DNA of 34,534 nucleotides from assembly GCA_017624155.1 (NCBI GenBank), contig JAGANS010000092.1, positions 1 through 34,534 on the forward strand. Reading direction: 5' to 3'. Position numbers and translations under genes: made by a program. Source of the stretch: Muribaculaceae bacterium (GTDB taxonomy: Bacteria > Bacteroidota > Bacteroidia > Bacteroidales > Muribaculaceae). The notes under the pieces are model-generated. The model was not told the DNA's origin and searched no databases. It saw only the letters and a list, made by a program, of their open reading frames with translations. Positions 1 through 8,173 of this stretch are shown here, one piece after another (within the stretch, counting starts at the first letter, position 1; each line of letters begins with the position of its first letter).

Positions 1-131
1 AGCTGGAGCAGTTTCTTGTATGCGGGTAGCTTGGCGTTGGGGCGTGTAAGGTCGCGGAGTACGTACCACTCTGCCCGGGTAACGGGTATATCTTCTAATC
101 CTGCATGAATAGGTATTTGGTTGGAATCCAT
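1..131 (-). CDS. UpxY/NusG-like transcription antiterminator, N-terminal fragment
   Basis: Partial gene on the minus strand, running off the left end; about 43 residues are visible from an ATG at 131. The segment AEWYVLRDLTRPNAKLPAY is the opening of the NusG N-terminal domain as found in Bacteroidales UpxY-type antiterminators (family knowledge, recognised by eye). These proteins ride on RNA polymerase and let it read through long capsular or exopolysaccharide operons, and their gene is normally the first of such an operon. The adjoining invertible promoter (236-429) is the arrangement known from Bacteroides capsule loci and strengthens the call. The rest of the gene and the operon lie outside the window, so the function of the locus is inferred. 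No other ATG is seen close upstream in this frame. Confidence 0.72.
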   Translation of the reverse strand, partial: MDSNQIPIHAGLEDIPVTRAEWYVLRDLTRPNAKLPAYKKLLQ

Positions 132-209
132 GCAGTTATTGTCAGACGCTTCAAATGTTGCGAACCTTACAGAGTTACTGAAATCCACTTCGGTCAATCA
201 AGGCTCGTG

Positions 210-240
210 GCCTGTAATCTTCTTATTGTGCCTGTAATCT
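210..240. repeat. Direct repeat GCCTGTAATCT, two copies 20 bp apart
   Basis: GCCTGTAATCT occurs at 210-220 and again at 230-240. The second copy runs into the left inverted repeat of the invertible segment. Two turns of helix between the copies would place them on the same DNA face, so they could be accessory recombinase sites or a regulator site in the leader of the antiterminator. The role is inference. Confidence 0.55.
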
Positions 241-256
241 CTTTGTAAGAGATACT
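236..256 (+). repeat. Left inverted repeat (IRL) of invertible promoter
   Basis: 21-bp sequence whose exact reverse complement lies at 409-429. It contains a dyad, ATCTCTT-TGT-AAGAGAT (237-253), whose 3-base centre is asymmetric and so gives the site a direction. Identity stops exactly at 21 bp: the next bases on both the outer and the inner side do not match. Confidence 0.9.
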
Positions 257-390
257 AAGCCAACCTATATGCCTGATATTTAATAAATCCCATCGGGGAC
301 CGATTAAAACGGTTTCATTTATTGCCTCTCAATCGCCATTGTTCCTGTATTTTTCGGATGGCAAATACAGTGATTTTCAATTAAAATTCG

Positions 391-398
391 TACCTTTG
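391..398 (+). promoter_or_regulatory. Promoter -7 box TACCTTTG inside the invertible segment
   Basis: TACCTTTG matches TAnnTTTG exactly and equals the -7 boxes before both tRNA genes here. No good -33 TTTG is seen at the expected distance (367-370 reads acag). A weak -33 may mean an activator is needed. Confidence 0.72.
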
Positions 399-408
399 CA
401 GAGTTATA

Positions 409-429
409 AGTATCTCTTACAAAGAGATT
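409..429 (-). repeat. Right inverted repeat (IRR) of invertible promoter
   Basis: Exact reverse complement of 236-256 over all 21 bases, carrying the same dyad with an ACA centre. Recombination between the two copies would flip bases 257-408. Confidence 0.9.
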
Positions 430-440
430 GACATATATAC

Positions 441-481
441 GACGGACGCGGCGTGGATTTATGGTCCATGCCGCGTCCGTC
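441..481. other. Long GC-rich hairpin beside the switch
   Basis: 17-bp stem, arms 441-457 and 465-481, with one G-T wobble in the rightward RNA and a 7-base loop. There is no clear U-tract on either side, so it is not a standard intrinsic terminator. It lies just downstream of where the OFF-oriented promoter would start RNA (about 405), and could stop that transcript or insulate the switch from the porin gene. Confidence 0.6.
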
Positions 482-522
482 GGGTGTGTTGGCTATCGCT
501 CAGTAGTTCTGTGTCGGTTTTA

Positions 523-566
523 CCTAAAAATGAAGGCTGCGCCGTGAATGAGATTACGGCGCAGCC
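523..566 (-). terminator. Intrinsic terminator of the OmpA-like gene
   Basis: Perfect 11-bp stem (535-545 with 556-566) and 10-base loop. It is followed on the minus strand by a T-rich stretch (TTCATTTTTA), 26 bases beyond the stop codon of the leftward porin gene. Confidence 0.85.
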
Positions 567-591
567 CATGGTTATGTGTGGTAAGTGTCGA

Positions 592-1797
592 TTACTTGCC
601 TTCTTCGATTGTCACGGCACGGTCGAGGGCCACGTACTTTTCGCCGAGGTCGCAGAGGTTGCCGTTGTTGGTGGTAGCGGTGAGCTGAGAAGCAGCCACG
701 CCGTTCTTCACGAGGTTGTTGTAAACGCCGTTAACACGGTTGTGACGGAGACGGATGTTCACCTTGTCGCTGCCGGTGTAGTTGTCGGCCCAGCCGGTGA
801 GCACATAGTGCTTGTCGGTGTTGCTCTTCATAACCTCTGCGATAGCGCCGAGCACGTTGCGGTCTTCGCGGGTGAGGTTGTAGCGGCCGATAGGATAGTA
901 GATGGTGGCGAGGGGAGCTGCTTCGACTTCCTTGACTTCAACAGGACGGTTGAGGCAGTCGCGGAGCTGCTGCTCGAGGTCGGCGATGCGGGCATCGGCG
1001 GCAGCGAGGCGGGCACGGAGGGCGTCGCAGTTCTCGGCGGGAGGACATACGGGCACAACGGGGTGCTTCCATTCGCGCTGGTTGAAGAGGTATGTGAGGC
1101 CGAGGTAAGCCTGTACGTCGAGGTATGTGCAGTTCTGGCCGGCGCTATAGTCGGGTATACCGTCGATGGCCGATGCGCGGAGATCGAGCGACAGCTGAAC
1201 CTGCTTGCTTACGTTGAACGAGTTGATGAAGCCGGCACGGAATGTGAGCACCTTGTCACCGCAGTCCTTGTAGCCGTTGTCCTTGCCGTTGGTGTATTCC
1301 TTGGCCATTGTCCAGTAGCCGCCTGCACCAGCGTAGAGTACGAAGTTGTAGATACGGCCGGGCTTGTAGCCGCAGAAGAGGTTGGTGAGGTTGGCCATTA
1401 CGTCGAATGCCGGACCGATGTGGTTGTGGCGTGTCTTGTAATAGCCGTCGACGAGACCTTTGTCGAGAAGGATATCTTTGGCGTTCTTGTCGCCGAGACC
1501 CTTGTTGCTGAGGAAGTCTACGCCGATACGGGCACCCCAGACAGGAGTGAACCATTTGCCGACATATAAACCTGCATTGGGGGCGAAGCGATCCTGGAAC
1601 TTACGGTGTGCGTCGAACTTCGAGAAGTAAACGTTGACGCCACCTTCAGCAGTGATGAACCAGTTGTCTTTGAACGAATTCATCAGATAACCCTGAGAAG
1701 CGTCTTCAACATACTGGATTTCCTGTGCCTCTTGGGCGAACAGCGACGGAGCCACGAACATGGCGCAGAGGCTGGCGAGGAGTGTAATCTTCTTCAT
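592..1797 (-). CDS. OmpA-family outer membrane protein
   Basis: 401 residues. The first 21 residues (MKKITLLASLCAMFVAPSLFA, written here in two parts MKKITLLASLC and AMFVAPSLFA) form a signal peptide. Residues about 40-245 alternate as expected of an 8-strand beta-barrel. A short coiled coil follows (about 258-285, LRARLAAADARIADLEQQL), then an OmpA-like peptidoglycan-binding domain (about 297-401) with GWADNYTG and NIRLRHNRVNGVYNNL in place of the usual NxxLSxxRA helix. The protein should anchor the outer membrane to the cell wall. It stands alone, with its own terminator and a 199-bp upstream gap in which I could not identify a convincing TAnnTTTG box. The start is the ATG directly before the signal peptide. 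Confidence 0.9.
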   Translation of the reverse strand: MKKITLLASLCAMFVAPSLFAQEAQEIQYVEDASQGYLMNSFKDNWFITAEGGVNVYFSKFDAHRKFQDRFAPNAGLYVGKWFTPVWGARIGVDFLSNKGLGDKNAKDILLDKGLVDGYYKTRHNHIGPAFDVMANLTNLFCGYKPGRIYNFVLYAGAGGYWTMAKEYTNGKDNGYKDCGDKVLTFRAGFINSFNVSKQVQLSLDLRASAIDGIPDYSAGQNCTYLDVQAYLGLTYLFNQREWKHPVVPVCPPAENCDALRARLAAADARIADLEQQLRDCLNRPVEVKEVEAAPLATIYYPIGRYNLTREDRNVLGAIAEVMKSNTDKHYVLTGWADNYTGSDKVNIRLRHNRVNGVYNNLVKNGVAASQLTATTNNGNLCDLGEKYVALDRAVTIEEGK

Positions 1798-1996
1798 AGG
1801 AGTTTACAGTTAAGTTATGATTGAATGTTAATTATATTAATGTCTTATGTGCGTGTGCGTTTAGTAATGACTGAATTTTGCCTCGTAAAGAGGCCGTTTC
1901 AGGCCGCTAAGTTACGAAGTTTTCTTCATATATAAACTATAAAGGTTAAAAAAAGTTTTGTTTTTGTAAAAAATAATGACGTTTTCGGGCGTGTGT

Positions 1997-2542
1997 TCAG
2001 TCGCGTTCAGGCACTTGGAAAATGGAAAAGTTCACCGAACCGTATGTGCGGTGGTCCATAAAGCCCGGCAGGCTGCTGAAATCATGTGTGCGGTTGTGCT
2101 CGACAATAACGATGGTGCCGGGCGCCACCGCTCCCGAATTAAGAATAGCTGCCGGTATGGCGGCAAATCCCGGCATGTCGTAGGGCGGGTCGGCAAACAC
2201 GATGTCGTAGGGCCGCGAGGCTGTGGCCAGGAAGCGCAGGGCATCGCCGCGTATGAGGTTCAGATTGGTCTCGCCGAGTTGTGCGGCCACTTTTTTGATA
2301 AAATTGTATTGTGTGGCGGCCTTTTCAACGGCCGTTACACTCGCCGCTTCGCGCGACAGAAATTCGATCGATATGGCGCCGGTGCCGGCAAAGAGGTCCA
2401 GGATGTGCTTGCCCTCAATGTCGGTGATGTTTTCGAGCACGTTAAATATGTTCTCGCGCGCGAAGTCGGTTGTGGGTCGCGCCGTGATATTGGTAGGCAC
2501 GTCGAATCGCCGGCGGCCGTATTTTCCTCTTATTATTCGCAT
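1997..2542 (-). CDS. rsmD: 16S rRNA (guanine(966)-N2)-methyltransferase RsmD
   Basis: 181 residues. RsmD methylates N2 of G966 in 16S rRNA during small-subunit assembly, using S-adenosylmethionine. Visible motifs: N-terminal MRIIRGKYGRRRF, the SAM-binding loop DLFAGTGAISIEFLSR (49-64), acidic E73 in AVEKA, and the catalytic DPPY at 118-121. The ATG at 2542 was chosen because this N-terminus is typical; an ATG further upstream would add 39 Arg/Pro-rich residues that are a shadow of the next gene. Its start overlaps the end of the DUF3822 gene by 10 bp, so the two are translationally coupled in a leftward operon with the nucleotidyltransferase. Confidence 0.93.
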   Translation of the reverse strand: MRIIRGKYGRRRFDVPTNITARPTTDFARENIFNVLENITDIEGKHILDLFAGTGAISIEFLSREAASVTAVEKAATQYNFIKKVAAQLGETNLNLIRGDALRFLATASRPYDIVFADPPYDMPGFAAIPAAILNSGAVAPGTIVIVEHNRTHDFSSLPGFMDHRTYGSVNFSIFQVPERD

Positions 2543-7024: not shown

Positions 7025-8173
7025 ATGAAAAGAAGTCTTTTAGCGCTTGCATTCACTACATTTTGCCTTGGTATCACTGAATTCGGCATGATGGGAATGC
7101 TTGAGGAGGTCGCCGCCGGTATCGGAGTGGATGTCGTAAAGGCCGGGCATTTTATTTCGGCCTATTCACTCGGCGTCGCTGTCGGAGCTCCGGGGCTAAT
7201 CCTGTTGCGTCGCTGGCCCATGAAGCGCCTGCTGCTGTTGCTAATCAGCATAATATGTATAGGTAATGTATGTGCGGCCATATCGCCCGGCTACTTTACA
7301 TTGTTGTGCTCGCGCTTTGTATCGGGTTTGCCCCATGGAGCATTCTTTGGAGCGGCAGCCATAGTGGCCGAGCGCATCGCGCCCGAAGGCCGCAAGGCTC
7401 AGGCTGTGGCGGTGATGGTCGGCGGCATGACGGTCGCCAACGTAGTCGGCGTACCATTTGCCACCTTTCTGTCCAATGTACTCAGCTGGCGGCTGGCATT
7501 CGGCGTGGTGGGCCTTTGCGCTTTGGTTGCGCTGATATGCACCCGCGCTTGGGTTCCTTATCTTACCCCGCTGCCAGATACAGGCCTGAAAGGACAGTTC
7601 CGCTTTTTGTCGCATCCCGGGCCATGGCTCATATATACGGGCGTATTCTTCGGTCAGGCTTCGGTTTATTGCTGGCTCAGCTATATAGCGCCGTTCATGA
7701 CCGGGATAACGCACTTCTCGGCCGAAGATATGTCGTGGATTATGGTAATTGTGGGCCTGGGCATGGTAGTCGGCAACGCTGTGGCCGGTAAGCTCTCCGA
7801 CCGCTATCCGGCGGCTTTGGTCACGGGCATTATTGCCGCTATATTGCTTGTAGTGATGCCGGCTGTTTATTTTCTTGCGGCTTATAAGATCCCGTCGGTT
7901 GTGTTGGCCTTTGTTGCGCCGGCCTGCCTGTTTGGTATCGGCGGTCCGCTGCAATATCTTATCGTTAAGTATGCCAAGGGCGGCGAAATGCTGGGTGGTG
8001 CCGGTATACAGATAGCTTTCAATGTGTCAAATGCCGTGTCGGCCTCGCTCGGCGGCATAGCCATACGCCACGGTCTCGGCCTTGCGTCGCCTGCTCTTGT
8101 GGGTGTGCCGTTTGCCGCGATCGGCGCCGCGGCCCTCTTCATTCTATACCGCAAATACAGGATTCCGGCGTAA
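7025..8173 (+). CDS. MFS transporter, DHA1/AraJ-like efflux family
   Basis: 382 residues, inner membrane, twelve predicted transmembrane helices. The opening ALAFTTFCLGITEFGMMGML is typical of the AraJ/YdeA-like branch of drug:H+ antiporter-1 exporters, with a conserved Glu in helix 1. The loop 2-3 region (RRWPMKRL) and the cytoplasmic GKLSDRYP loop between helices 8 and 9 match the family's basic/Gly loops. The likely role is proton-driven export of sugars, drugs or metabolites; the substrate is unknown. The start at 7025 (MKRSLLALAF) was preferred to 6977 because the promoter boxes overlap the latter. Single gene, convergent with the secreted-protein operon. Confidence 0.87.
   Translation: MKRSLLALAFTTFCLGITEFGMMGMLEEVAAGIGVDVVKAGHFISAYSLGVAVGAPGLILLRRWPMKRLLLLLISIICIGNVCAAISPGYFTLLCSRFVSGLPHGAFFGAAAIVAERIAPEGRKAQAVAVMVGGMTVANVVGVPFATFLSNVLSWRLAFGVVGLCALVALICTRAWVPYLTPLPDTGLKGQFRFLSHPGPWLIYTGVFFGQASVYCWLSYIAPFMTGITHFSAEDMSWIMVIVGLGMVVGNAVAGKLSDRYPAALVTGIIAAILLVVMPAVYFLAAYKIPSVVLAFVAPACLFGIGGPLQYLIVKYAKGGEMLGGAGIQIAFNVSNAVSASLGGIAIRHGLGLASPALVGVPFAAIGAAALFILYRKYRIPA

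Follow-up and report, generated by a model that had tools for sequence, protein, structure and literature searches.

Features at the left end of the window

The window (the whole stretch of 34,534 nucleotides that was analysed) starts at base 1 of contig C34, which belongs to a bin of 2.44 Mb in 97 contigs with a completeness of 87.8%. Its left end carries the following features:

1..131, minus strand: 5' end of upxY (UpxY-family antiterminator gene), with the ATG at 131; the contig end cuts the gene
236..256, plus strand: left arm AATCTCTTTGTAAGAGATACT, putative recombination site with the palindromic core CTCTT-TGT-AAGAG at 239-251
257..408, no strand assigned: putative invertible segment with promoter, 152 bp between the arms
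391..398, plus strand: TACCTTTG, a -7 box of the Bacteroidota type that lies 15 bp inward of the right core and reads to the right, away from upxY
409..429, minus strand: right arm, which matches the reverse complement of the left arm exactly, with the core at 414-426 and the same spacer in inverted register
440..482, no strand assigned: strong stem-loop just outside the right arm, without a U-run, which may serve the OFF-oriented promoter as an insulator or terminator
526..566, minus strand: hairpin followed by a T-run (-24 kcal/mol, z -6.6)
592..1797, minus strand: OmpA-family outer membrane protein gene, the right neighbour of the switch, which is no recombinase gene

The inverted repeats at 236-256 and 409-429, on which the original prediction was founded, were confirmed as exact (21 nt, 100% complementary, separated by 152 nt), and they are the sole pair in the 34.5-kb window with arms of at least 14 nt at a spacing of 60-600 nt; the longest arm per resample was 10-15 nt in 40 first-order Markov resamples of the window. 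Each arm is itself palindromic (ATCTCTT-TGT-AAGAGAT), as expected for a recombinase site. The consensus box that had been placed between the repeats was found as TACCTTTG at 391-398 on the plus strand; it is a TAnnTTTG box inside the segment that reads out through one arm, and its distance of 15 bp from the core is a common one in the site class described below. The promoter is read as OFF because the box points away from upxY, in agreement with the OFF form that had been proposed. By these features, the window switch looks like a Bacteroidales UpxY-linked invertible promoter of the known kind.

The stem-loop outside the right arm folds on both strands, with -46.4 kcal/mol (z -7.3) for 430-500 of the plus strand and -33.9 kcal/mol (z -7.0) for 430-490 of the minus strand, respectively. 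The OmpA-family gene converges on the switch, and the hairpin at 526..566 is likely its terminator. A direct repeat was also seen at 211-240, where CCTGTAATCT occurs twice, 20 bp apart, and reaches into the left arm, possibly as a piece of an additional half-site.

The upxY fragment and the left-hand locus

The start codon of upxY lies on the minus strand at 131, 104 nt from the left arm, and is followed by 43 codons up to the contig end, with the translation MDSNQIPIHAGLEDIPVTRAEWYVLRDLTRPNAKLPAYKKLLQ. A UpxY profile made for this analysis gave the fragment 14.9 bits (best of 200 shuffles, 1.3), and the WYVLRDLTRPNAKLPAYK part of the fragment shares 64-88% identity across 17-22 residues with the UpxY proteins of loci L099, L073, L052 and L035, which were collected by site class, so that their adjacency to such invertons is by construction. 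The claim that the first codons of a UpxY/NusG-like antiterminator lie beside the switch was thus upheld, as the 43-aa fragment beats its shuffles and matches four UpxY proteins. It had no match in Pfam and NCBIfam, probably because it is so short, and no second upxY was found in the 87.8% complete bin by profile search.

UpxY is described as the antitermination factor of its own polysaccharide locus (PMC13114119, PMC12632263). Judging from the upxY fragment and from this role of UpxY elsewhere, the locus to the left of the window is probably of the capsule/exopolysaccharide type.

Distribution and properties of the site class

The strict site class was defined as the core CTCTTNNNAAGAG, paired, with a gap of 155-185 (168-198 bp apart). 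Strict paired cores were present in 14 of the 49 genomes searched of the window's genus (its own included), in which the backwards control pattern gave 0 matches, and in at least 119 stretches of the GTDB contig collection; three of the strict pairs (L071, L114 and L125) are in P. vulgatus ATCC 8482. From the matches listed, 136 strict pairs were analysed, including the window's own and four identical duplicates; of the four pairs that genome G018 has, two were covered. In the window's own genome, three strict cores (two in the window and one on contig C9) compare with two matches of the backwards control pattern, so a single core is not evidence, whereas pairing and spacer identity are.

The overlap of tyrosine recombinase sites must match for strand exchange. 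The 3-nt spacer was identical between the arms in 125/136 pairs, against a chance expectation of about 1/64, and 40 different spacers were counted among the deduplicated loci; spacers that are equal within loci and varied between them are the signature expected of recombination sites. Among the 125 equal-spacer pairs, an outward TAnnTTTG box within 60 bp was found on one side only in 107, on both sides in 8 and on neither in 10, and the box was mostly 13-17 bp from the core. The 11 unequal-spacer pairs, with a box in 1/11, are all titled outside Bacteroidales (Ignavibacteriales, Sediminibacillus, Ktedonobacter, Caloramator, Deltaproteobacteria, Micrarchaeota, Helicobacter, Clostridia, Zixiibacteriota, Ruminococcus and Enterobacter), and they appear to have paired by chance. 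The paired-core site class, as recognized by its sequence pattern, is one that occurs across Bacteroidales; among the equal-spacer pairs, only L062 and L147 are titled outside the order, and the titles of L064, L101 and L130 name no group.

The two exceptions, L062 (JAFQOE010000165.1, titled Lachnospiraceae) and L147 (JAMPBQ010000001.1, titled Clostridium), both carry Bacteroidales-type invertons. In sequence, L147 agrees with a contig from a genome of the window's own genus, so that its Clostridium title looks wrong; L062 may be a misbinned contig.

Orientation of the switch and its homologues

A UpxY-profile ORF was found within 400 bp of 28 invertons, of which 16 were OFF and 11 were ON (each of these two counts containing one duplicate) and 1 was undecided. 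The other 97 of the 125 invertons had no such ORF within 400 bp, and the window is among them with its fragment of <60 aa. The nearest homologue of the window switch found among the matches listed is L035, a locus of a congener. At this locus (L035/L012), the UpxY protein scored 120.3 bits against an NCBIfam cut-off of 100, and the box points at upxY (ON). The window inverton with its arms aligned end to end to the L035 inverton in the flipped register with a score of 68, compared with 52 in the same-strand register and 35 for the best of 200 shuffles; the same-register score also exceeds the shuffles because the arms match either way. The flipped-register alignment is supportive of an inversion, short of proof.

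Homologous inverton pairs were compared with respect to their flanks, at least one flank of at least 300 nt being aligned. Six of the 40 pairs were flipped against their flanks, three of them with both flanks aligned, and 34 had the same orientation; the 40 pairs are not independent, and neither are the six flips, among which L129 and L144 are near-identical and a single genome supplied both L117 and L122. Excluded from the count were duplicates, pairs that lacked an inner match and pairs with an aligned flank that was inconsistent or <300 nt, among them L047/L157 and L047/L082, which had looked flipped earlier. The invertible-promoter reading of the original prediction is supported by the site class, the spacer identity, the outward box, the oppositely oriented switch of the congener and the flipped homologous pairs, and from these sequence comparisons we infer that the segment of the window can invert in this organism.

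A DNA search of relatives found no flipped form in a genome of the same species. With window 1-640 as the query, the switch was matched only partly, in a few congeners, and with window 1-480 matches were obtained in 3 of 297 family genomes, the window's own included. No exact match to a 51-nt stretch of the window was found in viral contigs (exact matches only), and a plasmid search gave no match. The OmpA flank was located in 17 congener loci (16 genomes), where no strict core was found within the up to 600 bp examined; the relaxed pattern gave 0 pairs of cores beside this flank in 16 of these loci. Placement of the switch beside ompA is apparently not conserved.

Another arrangement was seen at L139 (1820-3387), where the inverton has upxY on both sides and the arm match extends 214 nt outward; its promoter might choose between two upxY copies.

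Candidate invertase and a second switch

PF00589 had no match on the window's contig and six matches elsewhere in the bin. A profile of inverton-adjacent recombinases matched 7 ORFs of the window's own genome, with 514.6 bits for a 397-aa tyrosine recombinase on contig C9 (region L173 7660-8927, start at 7734) and 174.3 bits for the next. By alignment, the C9 recombinase has all of the catalytic residues R-Y-R-H-Y, and its five best matches in the set, with which it shares 49-51% identity, are L067, L038, L105, L035 and L044. A recombinase-profile ORF was found within 3 kb of 42 of the 125 invertons, including three fusion proteins (L083, L092 and L117) and L122, a large ORF of lower score; 32 of the 42 are within 100 bp of an arm.

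A match to the C9 enzyme at E <=1e-100 was obtained in 14/14 genus genomes with strict invertons and in 17/35 without (Fisher p 6e-4; 13/13 and p 7e-4 with the own genome omitted), where the p values are only a guide because the E cut-off was chosen after seeing the table and the genomes are related. Two of the 17, G012 and G041, have stops in the matches listed. Among 30 fetched loci of relatives of the C9 enzyme, 5 had a relaxed site pair, compared with 0 of 16 control loci; the relatives' loci covered at most about 1.5 kb on each side, several being cut by contig ends, and the more divergent arms of L195 (which is the L044 locus) escaped the relaxed pattern. The link between enzyme and sites within the genus suggested by these counts is moderate, and it is plausible that the C9 tyrosine recombinase acts in trans as the invertase of the window switch.

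Mpi is a serine invertase, and an enzyme of this type was considered as well and rejected: PF00239 gave 0 matches at E 0.01 in the 87.8% complete bin, in a search that matched 10 of 14 control genomes, the sole Bacteroides control being without a match.

A second inverton of the same genome lies on contig C9 (L173 1019-1035/1195-1211, one mismatch, spacer GAT). Its box TAACTTTG reads to the right, toward DUF3575, DUF5119 and Mfa_like_1 (fimbrillin-like) genes, which we infer to form one operon; the switch is read as ON because the box faces fimbrillin-type genes. The C9 recombinase gene is located behind the last gene of the fimbrial run (a GDSL-type lipase gene) and a hairpin with a T-run, which folds only moderately better than its shuffles do (-16.2 kcal/mol, z -2.8, 2 of 200 shuffles as good). 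It was also observed that little space is left after this hairpin for a promoter of the recombinase gene itself.

The window switch (TGT, OFF) and the C9 switch (GAT, ON) have half-sites in common but differ in spacer, which would allow a single enzyme to invert each of them without joining them. That one trans-acting tyrosine invertase couples a capsule-type switch and a fimbrial switch in this way is a tentative suggestion from the sequence, with the balance somewhat against it. Read-through from the ON fimbrial promoter could then set the switching rate of both switches, and if one enzyme did serve a capsule switch and a fimbrial switch, the surface states would be linked via a shared switching rate.

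Recombinase-like/UpxY fusion proteins

ORFs in which a recombinase-like part is fused to UpxY were noticed at six loci (443-554 aa, L045 being cut by the locus end):

L083, 3809-5224, plus strand: fusion ORF
L092, 4061-5494, plus strand: fusion ORF
L117, 6338-7999, plus strand: fusion ORF
L132 (L132/L040), 609-2057, plus strand: fusion ORF
L113, 111-1511, minus strand: fusion ORF
L045, 1-1329, minus strand: fusion ORF

Their C-terminus is UpxY, with NF033644 scores of 35.6-71.5 bits, below the cut-off of 100. The N-terminal part matched the recombinase profile in 3/6, and Phage_int_SAM was matched at E <=0.1 in 4/6, two of them above the curated cut-off. In the alignment to active enzymes, Arg I and the tyrosine nucleophile are absent in 6/6 and Arg II also in 4/6, the alignment columns being approximate as the fusion sequences are distant from active enzymes. 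The tyrosine-recombinase-like domain of the fusions has apparently lost its catalytic residues.

A whole-fusion profile matched in 77 of 297 family genomes at E <=1e-10, with both fusion parts covered (profile position <=53 to >=433) in about 51 of 297, and gave no match in the window's own bin. Some of the fusions are the first gene behind an inverton of the window's class. Thirty fusion loci were fetched, 27 of which had at least 350 nt upstream; an inverted repeat of at least 11 nt was found upstream of the fusion in 11/27 loci and downstream in 0/27. Five of the 30 loci (L213-L217) are seeds, chosen for inverton adjacency, and with the seeds omitted the upstream repeat was found in 7/22; two of the 11 upstream repeats deviate from the strict core, and at L217, L228 and L229 a wrong ORF may have been chosen. 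The recombinase-like/UpxY fusion is possibly a regulator binding the arms. No literature titles describing such a fusion were found among the titles searched.

Proposed mechanism and alternative explanations

With high confidence, the window is interpreted as carrying an inverton before an upxY-led locus that is flipped by a tyrosine recombinase, with the C9 enzyme acting in trans as the best candidate. A tyrosine recombinase would bind both palindromic 21-bp arms and flip the 152-bp segment between them. In the present form, the TAnnTTTG promoter would fire rightward into the stem-loop, toward the 3' end of the OmpA-family gene, and upxY would be silent from this promoter; after inversion, transcription would run to the left across the other arm and enter upxY, 104 nt off (ON), and UpxY would then prevent early termination of the polymerase in the operon that follows, which is probably one for a polysaccharide. 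No recombinase is found beside the window switch in the available sequence, and the 397-aa tyrosine recombinase on C9 would act in trans.

The strongest competing account concerns the identity of the enzyme. The switch may be real and be flipped by a local recombinase, or by another one absent from the bin, instead of the C9 enzyme; we consider this unlikely, at a level that still deserves attention. Recombinase-profile ORFs do lie within 3 kb of 42 of the 125 invertons, within 100 bp of the arm at 32 of these 42, and a local recombinase is present at the L035/L012 homologue. Moreover, the left neighbour is limited to 43 codons by the contig end at window base 1, and with a bin completeness of 87.8% the assembly could lack a local recombinase or a second enzyme. 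The flanks that can be read argue against a local enzyme, as the right one is ompA and the left one starts with upxY, and the capsule switch of P. vulgatus CL10 is described as inverting despite a defective adjacent recombinase (PMC13114119).

Two further accounts would deny that the segment is inverted at present. The switch could be a relic with intact arms and promoter, locked as no functional enzyme acts on it, and the sole candidate enzyme in the bin is 49-51% identical to its five best inverton-linked matches; drift would, however, erode the arms, which are perfect over 21 bp including the spacer, and the candidate enzyme keeps the five catalytic residues examined in a genome that holds a second site pair, so that this account is regarded as very improbable. 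Even less credit is given to a static regulatory inverted repeat (an operator or a terminator) unrelated to DNA inversion. Palindromic arms could fold or bind a dimeric protein, but spacers that are equal within and not between loci are unexpected of an operator pair, and a static repeat does not agree with the occurrence of both orientations against homologous flanks or with the association with tyrosine recombinases. A static operator pair was rejected on the basis of the spacer identity and the flipped homologous pairs. An inverton before upxY, acted on by a tyrosine recombinase, remains the preferred interpretation.

Comparison with known systems

For Bacteroides and Phocaeicola, capsule phase variation by inverting promoters is amply documented, and upxY-led loci with invertible promoters are well documented in gut Bacteroidales (PMC13114119, PMC12632263, PMC11892184, PMC8748976). 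P. vulgatus CL10 is reported to have an upxY-led capsule locus with an invertible promoter, for which ON and OFF were determined by PCR and immunoblot, and the inversion is ascribed to another recombinase, the adjacent one being defective (PMC13114119). The window resembles CL10, as described there, in the promoter between inverted repeats, the -7 box and upxY as the first gene (PMC13114119). Unlike that of CL10, the window switch is recognized from its sequence, belongs to another family and has its operon beyond the contig end.

In B. fragilis, Tsr19/BF2766 is reported to flip two distant promoters with a TAnnTTTG box, one of them for exopolysaccharide (PMC4747536). The shared-enzyme reading of the window and C9 switches parallels this precedent of one tyrosine recombinase and two distant promoters; unlike the situation in the window, the BF2766 enzyme is encoded near one of the promoters that it flips, and deletion was used to test it, according to the same report (PMC4747536). 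One global invertase of B. fragilis, Mpi, is described as flipping the phase-variable promoters before upxY/upxZ-led loci (PMC12632263). The window's bin differs from the Mpi system in that the search for a serine recombinase gave no match there.

S24-7 is the older name of Muribaculaceae. Genomes of S24-7 are reported to carry capsule loci marked by UpxY (PMC4936053). No paper joining an invertible promoter with Muribaculaceae was found in the literature searched, and for phase variation, capsular polysaccharide and Muribaculaceae it gave one match which, by its title, concerns the murine nasal microbiota.

Groups of Bacteroidota invertons (126, 131 and 136, for example) have been defined by repeat motif, with the promoter motif enriched, and UpxY genes and invertases have been reported near invertons (PMC11892184). 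The window switch is like the groups described there in its Bacteroidota promoter motif and in the UpxY gene near it (PMC11892184). Beside these known systems, the window adds a clean case of a putative invertible promoter in Muribaculaceae, and for its site class the arms, the spacer rule, the position of the promoter and a candidate enzyme are defined closely enough for the pairing of enzyme and switch to be predicted and tested.
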